Part shown: positions 21,938-27,912 of the stretch, one piece after another | Numbering within the stretch: the stretch's first letter is position 1 | How the letters are laid out: each line of letters starts with the position of its first letter | Made by a program: the position numbers and the translations under genes | The notes under the pieces: generated by a model | What the model was told of the DNA's origin: nothing | Seen by the model: only the letters and a program-made list of their open reading frames with translations | The model's database searches: none | Assembly: GCF_014706615.1 (NCBI RefSeq) | Contig: NZ_CP054877.1 | Location: 186,001 to 250,000, forward strand | Source: Candidatus Vesicomyosocius sp. SY067_SCS001 | GTDB lineage: Bacteria; Pseudomonadota; Gammaproteobacteria; PS1; Pseudothioglobaceae | Direction of reading: 5' to 3' | Length of the DNA stretch: 64,000 nt

Positions 21938-22351
21938 TTAGGGCCTAATGTAAGAATAGTCTTGTTGTTGTAAGTCTCCAATACGAACTACACCAGAAGT
22001 TACAATATTAACCCCTTCTACTAGTGTTGGAAATTTACCTTTTTTGCGTTTAATAGCTTTCATAGTGTTGCGACAAGCACTAAAGGTAATGTTATTCATT
22101 ATCATGGATTCAACACGATCAGAATTTTTATTGCTTTGAGTTAATATGCTTAAACCGGGACCGTAAGCTACAATTTCAACATCAACATTATCAATACCAT
22201 AGTATTTTTGTAAGTTGATAGCATTATTTAGAACAATTTTTTGTGTTCTAATATCATCTGTGCTGATTTGAATCACATATTTTTGATTTATTGCTTGAGC
22301 GTTTAGTGTTAATAGTATAAGTGTTGTAATACTAAATAATATTTTTTTCAT
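21938..22351 (-). CDS. Exported DsrE-family protein
   Basis: Small periplasmic protein of the DsrE/DsrF superfamily. Signal peptide MKKILFSITTLILLTLNAQA (137-residue product from the ATG at 22351; nine codons upstream are open but not signal-like). The body has YVIQISTDDIRTQKIVLNNA, the conserved VEIVAYGPGL, a single cysteine in FSACRNTM, and the ending YSYIRP typical of this secreted subfamily. Cytoplasmic DsrE proteins carry sulfane sulfur; the exported group is common in sulfur oxidisers but its role is not established. It converges on lon, 6 bases apart. Confidence 0.8.
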   Translation of the reverse strand: MKKILFSITTLILLTLNAQAINQKYVIQISTDDIRTQKIVLNNAINLQKYYGIDNVDVEIVAYGPGLSILTQSNKNSDRVESMIMNNITFSACRNTMKAIKRKKGKFPTLVEGVNIVTSGVVRIGDLQQQDYSYIRP

Positions 22352-23060
22352 CTTTTTTTCGTTATAATTAAAAAGCATTTCTTTTTGTATAAAAACATCA
22401 ATTATCTTACGCTATTTTTATGATTTTAGAGTAATAATAGTCAGTAAAATTATTTACTGACTATCAATATTTTAATCTAGTTCTATTTGTGATTTATTTA
22501 ATATTAGCTACTTAAAGCTATTGTTAACATGGTAATACAGAAGTATTTATTTAAGATGCTATGTATTTATGTATTTTGATTCTTGTGAGTTGTTCTAAAT
22601 ACAATGATTTAGTATCATATTGATTGTCGTACTGTAAAGTATGAAATTAAGTTATAGTTCTTTGAACTAAGTTGAGATATGTGTGGATGTAATAAGTTTA
22701 TTTAAGTAGATTTTTCTAGGTTAAATATTTTATTTATCATTAAAGTTTATAGTGCTATAGTGGGTTTTTAGATAAAATACTTTTTTATTGTCATTGATAA
22801 CTGTTCAAATTAAGAGAATAATGTATTGTGGATAGTCATGGGTGTTTGTGTGTTATTTTTTTTTAAATTTGCTTTAAAGTTGTTAGAATAATCTTGTTGA
22901 ATTAATTAGACTTTGCTATTTGTTGGCGTGAGTTTTCTAGTTATTATTATCAATAGCGCTGGTCTAGGTTAAATATAATGATTAATTAGATAATGTAATT
23001 TTATTAATCTTACCTTTTAGGTAAAATACCTAATATTATAGTTTTTAATAAGGTATTGAG
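22352..23060. other. Gene-free divergent spacer upstream of pepA
   Basis: About 710 AT-rich bases with no intact gene. A perfect 12-bp hairpin with a 4-base loop lies at 22437-22464, away from either neighbour's 3' end, so it looks like the orphan terminator of a lost gene. Just before pepA, 23018-23032 is a 6-bp inverted repeat (TAGGTA-AAA-TACCTA) that could be an operator. Confidence 0.55.
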
Positions 23061-24957: not shown

Positions 24958-24960
24958 TTA
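24918..24960 (+). terminator. Hairpin terminator between pepA and the DUF302 gene
   Basis: Thirteen-bp perfect stem (24918-24930 with 24942-24954), loop of 11, followed by a T-run that reaches into the stop codon of the opposite-strand gene. Best suited to plus-strand transcripts coming from pepA 420 bases upstream; it may also help end the minus-strand operon. Confidence 0.6.
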
Positions 24961-25578
24961 AAAGTCACCTTTTGCGCCATTATTCTGAATTACAGTCATT
25001 GCTCTTTGAATAACTAAAGCCTTTTCAAGTAAGTAATTAGGCAATGGTGAACCACCATAAATCATAGCATTCATGTTTAACATGTATAGCCATCTTTGTC
25101 CAGATTTATCTTCAATAAGTGCTAGTCTACAAGGTAAGTATGCTGAAAATGCATCTGAATAATCAACCATTGTCATTGCTGTTCGTGGTGAACAATATTG
25201 ATAAATTTTTAAGAATCTTTGCTTGTCGCTAGTTTGTAATTCAACCATTTCTGATAAGGGTAACATACCTACAGAACGAATACCTTTAGCAGTTGCAATA
25301 CTTTCCATTGCCTCTTCAACATCTTCATTTGAAACATCGTCAGCTACTTTTACGCGCACAACAGAAGCCATAGCAATATCACCTGTATCAAGCAGAGTGT
25401 TGATCATTGGCATGTACACCTTAGACATAGACTTTGGGTGTAGTTTTGGTGAAATTATTTCACCAATTACTTTTCCAATTATACCATCGTATTTGATTTG
25501 TAGTGATACAGTATAATAAATTGTAATAGCGCCAATAATAATTAATAACCATTTGATTAGATTGATAATTCCACTCAT
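24958..25578 (-). CDS. Membrane-anchored DUF302 protein
   Basis: One N-terminal transmembrane segment (about residues 5-28, LIKWLLIIIGAITIYYTVSL) followed by a DUF302 domain; the diagnostic C-terminal part runs DAFSAYLPCRLALIEDKSG, WLYMLNMNAMIYGG and NGAKGDF. 206 residues. DUF302 proteins are widespread in sulfur oxidisers and have no firmly assigned biochemical role; the Cys in YLPCR and in YQYCSPR could be functional. It is the last gene of the minus-strand cluster, 102 bases after the CBS gene, so membership of the same transcript is likely but not certain. Confidence 0.75.
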   Translation of the reverse strand: MSGIINLIKWLLIIIGAITIYYTVSLQIKYDGIIGKVIGEIISPKLHPKSMSKVYMPMINTLLDTGDIAMASVVRVKVADDVSNEDVEEAMESIATAKGIRSVGMLPLSEMVELQTSDKQRFLKIYQYCSPRTAMTMVDYSDAFSAYLPCRLALIEDKSGQRWLYMLNMNAMIYGGSPLPNYLLEKALVIQRAMTVIQNNGAKGDF

Positions 25579-25680
25579 TTATTTTTCCTGTTATGCAATA
25601 TATAAAATATTTCTGCATTCTAGCAGGTTAAAAAAAAATAGTTAATCTATCACTATATCCTAATTTTCTAATATTTTTTG

Positions 25681-26085
25681 TTATACAATCCTTAAACTAT
25701 TAAAGACAATGCTAGTTAAGCTAACCATGCCAACAATCTTACCATTATCTAAAACTGGGCAACGAGACAGATTAAATTTTGTTAATAGTTTTGCACAATA
25801 ACAAATATTCATATTAGGATGGACTGAAATAGCTGGTTTGTTCATAATTTCATATACATTAACTCGATCAAGTGCTCGGTCTTTGGCAATGACTTTGGAG
25901 GCAATGTCAGAAATTAGCACTACCCCGTATTCATCATATACATGAGATTTGTCAACTAAAAGCATTTTTGTTTTCTTATGTTGCATATCATTAAGTGCAT
26001 TTTGCACTGTGCATTTTGAATTAACAATATCAACCTGTTTCCACATGACATCTTTTACTAGGGTTGTTGTTGTATTATTAGTCAT
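25681..26085 (-). CDS. CBS-domain pair protein
   Basis: 134 residues made almost wholly of two CBS repeats: the first around residues 10-70 (VKDVMWKQVDIVNSKCTVQ…YGVVLISDIAS), the second around 75-134 (VYEIMNKPAISVHPNMNI…ILDNGKIVGMVSLTSI). Such stand-alone pairs bind adenine nucleotides or SAM and regulate channels and transporters. The ATG overlaps the stop of the PII-like gene by one base, so the two regulators are translated together. No enzymatic domain is attached. Confidence 0.85.
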   Translation of the reverse strand: MTNNTTTTLVKDVMWKQVDIVNSKCTVQNALNDMQHKKTKMLLVDKSHVYDEYGVVLISDIASKVIAKDRALDRVNVYEIMNKPAISVHPNMNICYCAKLLTKFNLSRCPVLDNGKIVGMVSLTSIVFNSLRIV

Positions 26086-26435
26086 TATATTTTTTCCTTT
26101 ATAGTGTGTTCTAGTGCATTAATTTGATGCATAACGCCAACAGCATCCTCTACATCAACTTGGAAAGCAATTCCTTCTTTTGGGTTGGATTCAAAATTAC
26201 CTGTATCAGCAATTGTTTCTAATATATCCCTAGAAAGATGTTGTTCTACTAGTAACAACAAAACATCTCTAGGAGTTTCAATATTGAGTCCTAAAAATGT
26301 TTTGTTGTGTTTGAGACCTTCTCCTCGAGCTTGAGAAATAATAGTCGATCCTGTAGCACCTTTTGTTCTAGCGGCCTCAAGTATATTATCAGTTCTATCA
26401 GAATCAACAAAAGCAATAATTAATTTAAAGTGCAT
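26085..26435 (-). CDS. PII-like signalling protein
   Basis: 116 residues with the beta-alpha-beta layout of the PII superfamily: FKLIIAFVDSDRTDNILEAARTKGATGSTI (1-32) and a second half ending FQVDVEDAVGV. The classical PII T-loop with the uridylylated tyrosine is absent, and the nucleotide-binding glycine patch is altered, so this is a PII-like protein rather than GlnB/GlnK. It sits between the DUF1538 genes and the CBS gene, which suggests that it senses a cytoplasmic ligand and controls the membrane proteins, as PII-like proteins do for other transporters. Ligand unknown. Confidence 0.78.
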   Translation of the reverse strand: MHFKLIIAFVDSDRTDNILEAARTKGATGSTIISQARGEGLKHNKTFLGLNIETPRDVLLLLVEQHLSRDILETIADTGNFESNPKEGIAFQVDVEDAVGVMHQINALEHTIKEKI

Positions 26436-26443
26436 AGTGTCTC

Positions 26444-27184
26444 CTATTTTTTATTTTGTTCTAAAAATTTCATAATTTGTACATAAGTCATCACACTCAT
26501 AATAGGAAATAATGAGGCAAAAGCTATTAAACCAAAACCATCAACAAGTGTAGAACGTCCATCGATTGTACCCGCAAGTCCAAGTCCAAGAGCTGCAACT
26601 AATGGTACGGTTACGGTAGATGTTGTTACACCGCCAGAATCATAGGCAAGTGCAATAATATTTTTAGGTGCAAAGTAGGTTTGTATAAGTACGATAACAT
26701 AGCCAGAAATAATAAAGTAATATAATGGTAATCCAGTTATAATACGAAAGCTTCCGATAGTAATACCGACAGCCACACCAATAGCAACTACAATTCTTAG
26801 AGGCCATACCTTGATAAAACCGCCAGATACTTGATTGGCTTTAATGGCAATTGCTAGTAAAGCTGGTTCAGCAATGGTTGTGGCAAAGCCAATGCTGGCT
26901 GCAAAAATATAAATCCAGTAATAATCTTTCCAGCTAAGTGTGTCATTACCGATAAAATCACTTGATGTTAGTTGCTGTGCCATTAGCTTTCCTAAAGGAA
27001 ATAGTGCTTTTTCTAATCCAACAATAAATAAAGTGAGCCCTATCCAAACTAAAATAAATCCTGCAATAATTTTCTTTAAATATGGTATCTTTTGTTTAAG
27101 GATAATTATCTGAAAACCAAGTAATACCACTGCAATAGGCATAATATCCCAGAACATATTTATAAAATTATCTATTAAATTCAT
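26444..27184 (-). CDS. DUF1538 membrane protein, second copy
   Basis: 246 residues with six to seven predicted transmembrane segments. Two conserved blocks are shared with the preceding gene: [12 protein letters not shown] (mid-protein) and [17 protein letters not shown] (about two thirds along), followed by [21 protein letters not shown]. The family is annotated only as DUF1538; the motif-rich membrane halves and internal pairing resemble a transporter. Its start overlaps the previous gene's stop by 4 bases (ATGA). In other bacteria DUF1538 also occurs as one long protein with two such halves. Confidence 0.8.
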
Positions 27185-27912
27185 TGTAATATACCAAATA
27201 ACATTACTGCAATAATAGGTAGAAGTGAGGCAATGGCAATCATTCCAAAACCATCTGTTAAAGGATTTCTGCCACTAATTGAACTAGCAAGGCCTACACC
27301 AAGTGCAGTGAGTAATGGTACAGTAATGGTACTTGTAGTTACACCGCCTGAATCATAAGCTAAGCCTATGATAAAATCTGGCGCAAAGAAAGTAGTAGCA
27401 ATTACTAGAAGATAGCCGCTAATAATTAAATATTGTATTGGCCAACCTTTTAAAATTCTTAGTACACCAATTACTACAGCTAAACCTACAGAAATAGCTA
27501 CAGTAAAACGTAAGGTTTTTGCATAATTATTAATTTCTGTTTGTGTATTGACAATACCACCCAGTTTTGCAATTTTAGCTGCTTCATTAGTAATTGCTAT
27601 GAGAGCGGGTTCGGCTACTGTAGTACCAAATCCTAAGGCAAATGAAAATAAGAGTAGCCAAAAAATTGAACCTTTTTTAACAAAACCATAGGCTAATGCT
27701 TCACCAATAGGAAATAATCCTAGTTTGAGCCCGTATACAAATAAAGTCAAACCTAATAAAACAAATCCTGTCCCCATGATAATATCCATCAAGTTTGGTA
27801 TGCTTTGTTGAAGTACAATAATTTGGAAAAAACTAACTACGCCTATTATAGGAGCTAAATCTTTAGAACTATCAATTAGATTGTTAATAAACTGTTTAAT
27901 AGTTTTTTTCAT
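27181..27912 (-). CDS. DUF1538 membrane protein, first copy
   Basis: 243 residues, paralogue of the next gene: [11 protein letters not shown] and [22 protein letters not shown] align block for block, with [23 protein letters not shown] after them. Six to seven hydrophobic segments, a short basic N-terminus (MKKTIKQF) and no signal peptide. The pair probably forms a heterodimeric or pseudo-symmetric membrane complex. It is the first gene of the minus-strand cluster and is divergent from pabC. Confidence 0.8.

Follow-up and report, generated by a model that had tools for sequence, protein, structure and literature searches.

What do the two adjacent DUF1538 membrane proteins of Candidatus Vesicomyosocius sp. 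SY067_SCS001 carry across the membrane, and do the small PII-like and CBS-pair genes that follow them control this transport? The DNA that we analyzed (contig NZ_CP054877.1, positions 186,001 to 250,000, called the window here) is a stretch of 64,000 nucleotides from the 1.03-Mb genome of this symbiotic sulfur bacterium, and the module in question lies at window positions 24958-27912 on the minus strand. A first-pass annotation had described five same-strand genes in this place, and we confirmed that layout with open reading frames (ORFs) and Pfam matches, the first four genes overlapping or lying no more than 8 bases apart. From comparison of the sequences, we think it reasonably probable that the locus encodes a monovalent cation/proton antiporter of the UmpAB type, that a dedicated PII-like protein gates it, and that the CBS-pair protein acts as a second sensor. 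In order of transcription, and with the confidence of predicted models given as predicted local distance difference test (pLDDT) values, the genes are as follows.

27181-27912, minus strand: umpA-like gene, DUF1538 membrane protein of 243 amino acids (Pfam DUF1538, 6.5e-67; model pLDDT 87)
26444-27184, minus strand: umpB-like gene, DUF1538 membrane protein of 246 amino acids (Pfam DUF1538, 2.4e-66)
26085-26435, minus strand: PII-like gene, 116 amino acids, dedicated partner of the DUF1538 pair (Pfam P-II, 3.3e-9; predicted PII fold)
25681-26085, minus strand: CBS-pair gene, 134 amino acids, probable adenylate sensor (two CBS stretches, Pfam 1.6e-16)
24958-25578, minus strand: gene for a DUF302 protein of 206 amino acids with an N-terminal hydrophobic membrane helix (Pfam DUF302, 5e-8)

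The umpA-like and umpB-like genes overlap by 4 bases, 8 bases separate the umpB-like gene from the PII-like gene, and the PII-like and CBS-pair genes share 1 base. The DUF302 gene is more loosely attached, standing 102 bases beyond the CBS-pair gene. A scan for promoters and terminators gave 12 promoter-like sites versus 20.3 expected and 2 terminator-like sites versus 1.5, no clear excess over shuffled sequence.

The two membrane proteins are paralogues that are 50% identical, and both match DUF1538 (PF07556) over their full length, scoring 225 and 223 bits where the cut-off is 22.6. Two motifs quoted in the first-pass annotation, one starting TT(V/I) and the other ending (I/V)TVPL, were found in both paralogues. 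The best NCBIfam models were UmpA for the first protein (343 bits) and UmpB for the second (314 bits), which matches the Halomonas gene order A-B. The module had been called uncharacterised, a label that we would drop, since a DUF1538 pair has already been assayed as a Na+(Li+,K+)/H+ antiporter (PMC5484666). In that paper, UmpAB of Halomonas zhaodongensis restored Na+ and Li+ tolerance in the antiporter-deficient Escherichia coli KNabc, Na+(Li+,K+)/H+ antiport that depended on pH was measured in everted vesicles, UmpA and UmpB co-precipitated as a heterodimer, and seven membrane segments were predicted for each subunit (PMC5484666). UmpAB homologues have also been tied to salt adaptation in cable bacteria (PMC12093952, PMC10030654), and DUF1538 was among the genes predicting growth pH in a machine-learning study (PMC13255231). 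By homology to the one assayed system, the window pair would be a monovalent cation/proton antiporter. For the substrates that had been offered as speculation, namely bicarbonate, another anion or a sulfur compound, we found nothing in support; the ions moved by the assayed DUF1538 pair are Na+, Li+ and K+ (PMC5484666).

We examined the gene neighborhood by searching with an alignment of the PII-like protein, one genome per species, and took the best 80 of 504 confirmed loci. The closest named locus among these is that of Candidatus Vesicomyosocius, with a PII-like protein 98% identical to that of the window. In 79 of the 80, the gene just upstream of the PII-like gene, and on its strand, encodes a DUF1538 protein; the exception (L073) is a contig that starts 176 bases before the PII-like gene. 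Directly downstream, again on the same strand and mostly with a 4-base overlap, there was a CBS gene in all 80. From these two counts, the gene arrangement is beyond chance. Outside the module the picture was mixed. In 72 loci (L040-L111) for which ORFs were called mechanically, the next ORF past the CBS gene shared the strand of the module in 35 of 68 cases, as did the next ORF upstream in 18 of 58, and the 47 downstream proteins (out of 68) with a Pfam match were spread over 68 families, the commonest of which was common to 8. Because the flanking ORFs are mixed in strand and family, the conserved unit is four genes. The DUF302 protein, which had been counted as a partner, was found downstream in 8 of the 80 loci (L032-L039, all of SUP05/Thioglobus type) and upstream in one more (L088). 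Given these counts and the gap that precedes it in the window, we rejected DUF302 as a module member and regard it as a lineage-specific neighbor.

We then asked the reverse question in 369 gammaproteobacterial genomes. DUF1538 was present in 125 and a PII-like protein of this type in 119; both occurred together in 116 genomes, DUF1538 alone in 9, the PII-like type alone in 3, and neither in 241. Out of 98 genomes in which coordinates were compared, 96 had the two within 4 kb on one contig. In the other two (G068 and G231), the DUF1538 pair is on one contig and the PII-like gene on another. Both are about 350 bases or less from a contig end in G231; in G068 the pair is at a contig end, but 1.5 kb of other sequence precedes the PII-like gene. 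Even among the nine genomes with DUF1538 alone, a broader profile run on the DNA recovered a divergent PII-like gene directly after DUF1538 in eight: three have a single PII-like gene, G154 and G267 have a pair of genes, and G179, G269 and G329 have one protein of 384-392 amino acids with two PII-like stretches. Genome G319 has a shortened DUF1538 gene and no PII-like gene. As for the three genomes with the PII-like type alone, G226 holds just a 24-residue stretch resembling the end of UmpB, the PII-like gene of G134 is at a contig end, and the match in G352 covers nothing but the opening 138 bases of a contig. G343 and G125, the two genomes with the UmpA closest to the Halomonas model, carry a PII-like gene some 0.8 kb beyond umpA, on the contig that holds umpA as well.

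Some of the divergent gammaproteobacterial loci have unusual architectures. The proteins of 384-392 amino acids with two PII-like stretches (L124:4159-5313, L127:4087-5265 and L129:986-2161) follow divergent DUF1538 genes, two of them fusions of 635 and 731 amino acids and the one in L127 split into two ORFs, and about 160 C-terminal residues of these proteins match no Pfam family. In locus L122 (genome G115), a PII-like gene separates two consecutive DUF1538 fusions, of which the second is cut by a contig end.

The association extends past the class. DUF1538 was found in 126 of 398 sampled genomes of the phylum, 104 of them outside Gammaproteobacteria, and we searched 80 of these 104 for the PII-like protein. 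A match at E ≤ 1e-8 was obtained in 79, and in 78 it was below 1e-20; the weaker match in G628 may be a classical PII, and G556 had no match. The PII-like gene adjoins DUF1538 in 57 of 60 genomes compared from these other classes. In a plasmid collection, 9 records carried a DUF1538 relative, and we inspected 7, the other two being second strains of the same species. All seven, from Clostridia and Alphaproteobacteria, have a gene of the PII family (PF00543) directly after the DUF1538 gene or genes. The idea that the paired transporter has a PII-like partner of its own, and that this holds far beyond the host lineage, is therefore supported (116 of 125 gammaproteobacterial genomes, 79 of 80 from other classes and 7 of 7 plasmid records).

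In five clostridial plasmid records (L112, L113, L116, L117 and L118), a single fusion protein of about 500 amino acids comprises both UmpA and UmpB. The PII protein after the fusion measures 217-239 amino acids, twice the usual length. Each of its halves can be aligned to the other and to the single PII-like proteins, although in only one of the five does Pfam detect both. Fusion of UmpA to UmpB and duplication of PII go together in these five records.

How the pair sits in the membrane can be judged from its charges. We counted lysine and arginine in the 61 of the 80 loci that had two usable full-length ORFs. UmpA carried a mean of 3.20 such residues before its first membrane segment and 0.51 after it, while UmpB carried 0.28 before its first segment, 3.74 after it and 3.80 in its C-terminal tail. 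The bias was opposite in 56 of the 61 pairs. By the positive-inside rule, the N-terminus of UmpA is probably cytoplasmic and that of UmpB outside, and because of this opposite bias we infer that the two are an inverted pair of paralogues in opposite orientations. Such orientations suit the prediction of seven segments per subunit. They also suit the clostridial fusions: these have an acidic linker, and a basic first loop is seen in their second half but not in their first.

The UmpA model breaks its helices at residues 100-101 (A100-E101-P102) and between 193 and 197. E101 stands at the first break and D187, in a (Y)DSGG motif, just before the second; both, together with R135, R215 and D220, were present in 41 of 41 UmpA sequences. 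This makes E101 of the AEP break and D187 of the YDSGG motif candidate ion- or proton-binding sites. Foldseek returned 0 matches to the model at E ≤ 0.001, VIA gave partial matches (best Z 6.3, root-mean-square deviation (rmsd) 2.6 over 57 residues), and the UmpA sequence profile had a single, chance-like match among solved structures (E 0.38). Because solved folds gave at best such partial matches, the proposal for E101 and D187 is based on sequence.

The PII-like protein was modeled with a pLDDT of 79 overall and about 53 around residues 41-50. The predicted model has the ferredoxin-like fold of PII (Foldseek E 7.9e-6; VIA Z 11.4, rmsd 3.9 over 94 residues), and the family profile reaches classical PII only at E ~0.1. 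In classical PII (GlnB/GlnK), the basic residues 90, 101 and 103 are positions that we take to bind the phosphates of ATP. Their counterparts in the window protein are I89, G100 and M102, none of them basic; among 41 PII-like sequences, I89 was found in 40 and G100 in 41, and position 102 was basic in 5. In the T-loop region, A36-R37-G38-E39-G40 and K45 were invariant in all 41. Since the classical ATP-phosphate residues are replaced, it is likely that the ligand is bound differently from classical PII, or that it is another molecule. Nor does the protein fit SbtB, whose gene is linked to that of SbtA; the window gene is preceded by DUF1538 genes. SbtB PII-like proteins have been described with a C-terminal CGPxGC redox hairpin (PMC13249358), and the window protein contains no cysteine at all.

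The CBS-pair protein has the two CBS stretches that its name implies. Residue D60 in the first CBS domain was invariant in 34 sequences, and at this position an aspartate is presumably a ligand-site residue, which suggests that the ligand site has been retained; judged from the family, adenylate sensing is likely. The best match of the family profile to a solved structure was CBS-CP12 (5nmu, 1.4e-33).

These neighbors raise a different reading, in which the pair moves an anion or a carbon or sulfur compound such as bicarbonate, the PII-like protein sensing carbon in the manner of SbtB. SbtB and CPII, which serve carbon supply, are among the structural neighbors of the PII-like model, and the host clade is chemoautotrophic. 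The CBS family is in turn nearest to CBS-CP12, which can inhibit the Calvin-cycle enzyme PRK (PMC9514657). However, the scores of SbtB and CPII do not exceed those of classical PII, and the module also occurs beyond autotrophs, with methanotrophs, Shewanella and Clostridia among the record titles. We observed no recurring carbon-fixation gene by the operon among the 47 matched downstream proteins, for which 25 of the 68 families were listed, and the sole assayed DUF1538 pair moves Na+, Li+ and K+ (PMC5484666). We consider this reading unlikely.

In the mechanism that we propose for a PII-gated antiporter, UmpA and UmpB would together make up a single antiporter, built as an inverted pair, that drives Na+ (or K+) out in exchange for H+; the glutamate of the AEP break and the aspartate of the YDSGG motif are the candidate residues for binding the ion or proton. 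The PII-like protein, which should be trimeric if it follows other PII proteins, would dock on the pair from the cytoplasmic side, and the metabolite bound to it would decide whether it blocks or releases the pair, as in GlnK-AmtB and SbtB-SbtA. The CBS protein would add an adenylate, that is energy-charge, signal. Gating by PII and CBS is plausible from the linkage of the genes. The identities and layout of the genes, the almost universal PII linkage, the opposite charge bias and the predicted PII fold are results of the analysis, while the substrate, direct binding, the ligands and the direction of control are inferred.

The first-pass annotation took its survival in an eroding genome as a sign of importance, and the DUF1538 pair and PII-like gene were indeed kept in all 12 genomes of the genus that we searched (G000-G011); DUF1538 was kept in 18 of 25 other family members sampled. 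Two of the 12 genomes (G004 and G007) have an intact gene for the antiporter NhaA (PF06965), two (G009 and G011) have one that is partial or interrupted by stops, and in the other eight none was found, so that NhaA seems to be decaying in the genus. PF00999 was not found in any of the 12, nor was NhaA found in the genome of the window itself.

Several points weigh against the proposal of a PII-gated antiporter. The window proteins do not reach the NCBIfam equivalog cut-offs for UmpA (NF041627, 490 bits) and UmpB (NF041628, 500 bits). We searched the 369 gammaproteobacterial genomes with the UmpA model, and none passed, the best score being 423 bits; the UmpA cut-off is very narrow. Because the scores lie below these cut-offs, we name the window pair as UmpAB-family homologues and do not claim proven equivalence. 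Antiport by DUF1538 pairs is known from one paper and one species, and our comparison with the Halomonas locus covers its published clone. The UmpA model has no usable match among solved transporters, and its fold therefore gives no independent support for antiport. Five of the 61 pairs lacked the opposite charge bias, and the C-terminal tails of the fused forms were mixed in charge. The 369 genomes are related, and counts among them are not independent. The genome of the window also encodes an NhaD antiporter; with that gene present, we rejected the idea of UmpAB as the sole sodium/proton antiporter of the genome, and it is one of few retained antiporters, not the only one. Gene linkage itself can reflect co-expression without contact, and the PII-UmpAB complex is hypothetical.

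The CBS protein is also a less general partner than the PII-like one. Using the CBS family profile, we detected no CBS gene in the 7 inspected plasmid records or in 12 divergent gammaproteobacterial stretches (L121-L132), some of which are cut by contig ends; the same profile found a CBS gene adjoining two fused forms, L139 and L140. Because CBS was not found in those plasmid records or in L121-L132, we regard PII as the core partner and CBS as an addition in many Gammaproteobacteria, just as DUF302 is an addition in the SUP05/Thioglobus-type loci. The CBS partner proposed in the first-pass annotation is thus supported in part, being there in all 80 close loci and in none of the 7 plasmid records or of L121-L132. 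We also rejected CBS as a mark of Gammaproteobacteria as a whole, since the divergent loci of that class are without it.

One further point bears on the direction of control. UmpAB alone was functional in E. coli (PMC5484666). The PII-like and CBS partners are therefore not required for transport. AmtB sequesters GlnK at the membrane, and by analogy the antiporter could hold the PII-like and CBS proteins there and so regulate other targets. The same linkage and fold evidence would fit, as would the activity of UmpAB without PII in E. coli (PMC5484666), but the surroundings suggest no second target, the neighboring genes being mixed in strand and family, and we think such reverse control improbable. 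The two small proteins might instead sense nothing and serve as assembly or stability partners of the oppositely oriented pair, an idea that gains from the almost absolute PII linkage and from the missing ATP-phosphate residues. Against it, the invariant D60, presumably a ligand-site residue, suggests a CBS ligand site that has been retained, and the UmpAB heterodimer forms and works in E. coli without partners (PMC5484666). This last explanation appears very improbable to us.

What is new here is the linkage to regulators; the antiporter pair is of an already known kind. We found no link of DUF1538 to PII or to CBS in the literature searched, and the review of PII-like proteins by Selim and Alva (2024) may already mention it. 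A broader statement, which we find as easy to doubt as to believe, is that DUF1538 antiporters across phyla make up a PII-controlled family: an inverted paralogue pair whose PII-like partners no longer have the classical ATP-phosphate site and are supplemented by a CBS protein or a second PII copy as sensor. If the antiporter of the window is PII-gated as proposed, PII, whose known roles lie mainly in the supply of nitrogen and carbon, would link metabolite sensing to the balance of pH and of sodium and potassium. The linkage also gives a lead on function for genes labeled 'P-II family nitrogen regulator' that lie beside DUF1538, as in 5 of the 7 plasmid records, and these may have little to do with nitrogen.

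Elsewhere in the window, a lone DsrE-family gene with a signal-like N-terminus (21938-22378, minus strand; Pfam DsrE 2e-5) has a Lon-like gene, identified by eye, on one side and a gene for an M17 aminopeptidase on the other. It is adjoined by about 680 bases (22379-23060) without an ORF of 60 amino acids or more, which may be a decayed gene.

Among known systems, UmpAB of Halomonas resembles the window pair in having two overlapping paralogous genes, full-length DUF1538, the order A-B and a longer second loop in UmpB. It differs in that the window pair scores below the equivalog cut-offs, and the terms 'PII' and 'CBS' appear nowhere in the text of PMC5484666. PsmrAB, a two-gene Na+/H+ antiporter compared in the same paper, is likewise a pair of homologous genes, but it has three segments per subunit and no similarity to UmpAB (PMC5484666). 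CBS-CP12 shares the CBS pair; the CBS part alone was matched, and the window protein belongs to an antiporter operon. SbtA-SbtB also combines a transporter with a small, divergent PII-like partner of PII fold, but its transporter is of another family, whereas the transporter of the window system consists of two paralogues, joined in close relatives by a CBS protein. AmtB-GlnK is again a transporter with a partner of PII fold; GlnK is a classical PII, while the window protein is only a weak P-II match in a genome that has two strong ones besides. If the broader statement on the family is true, DUF1538 pairs would add another large class to the PII-gated transporters, next to AmtB and SbtA.

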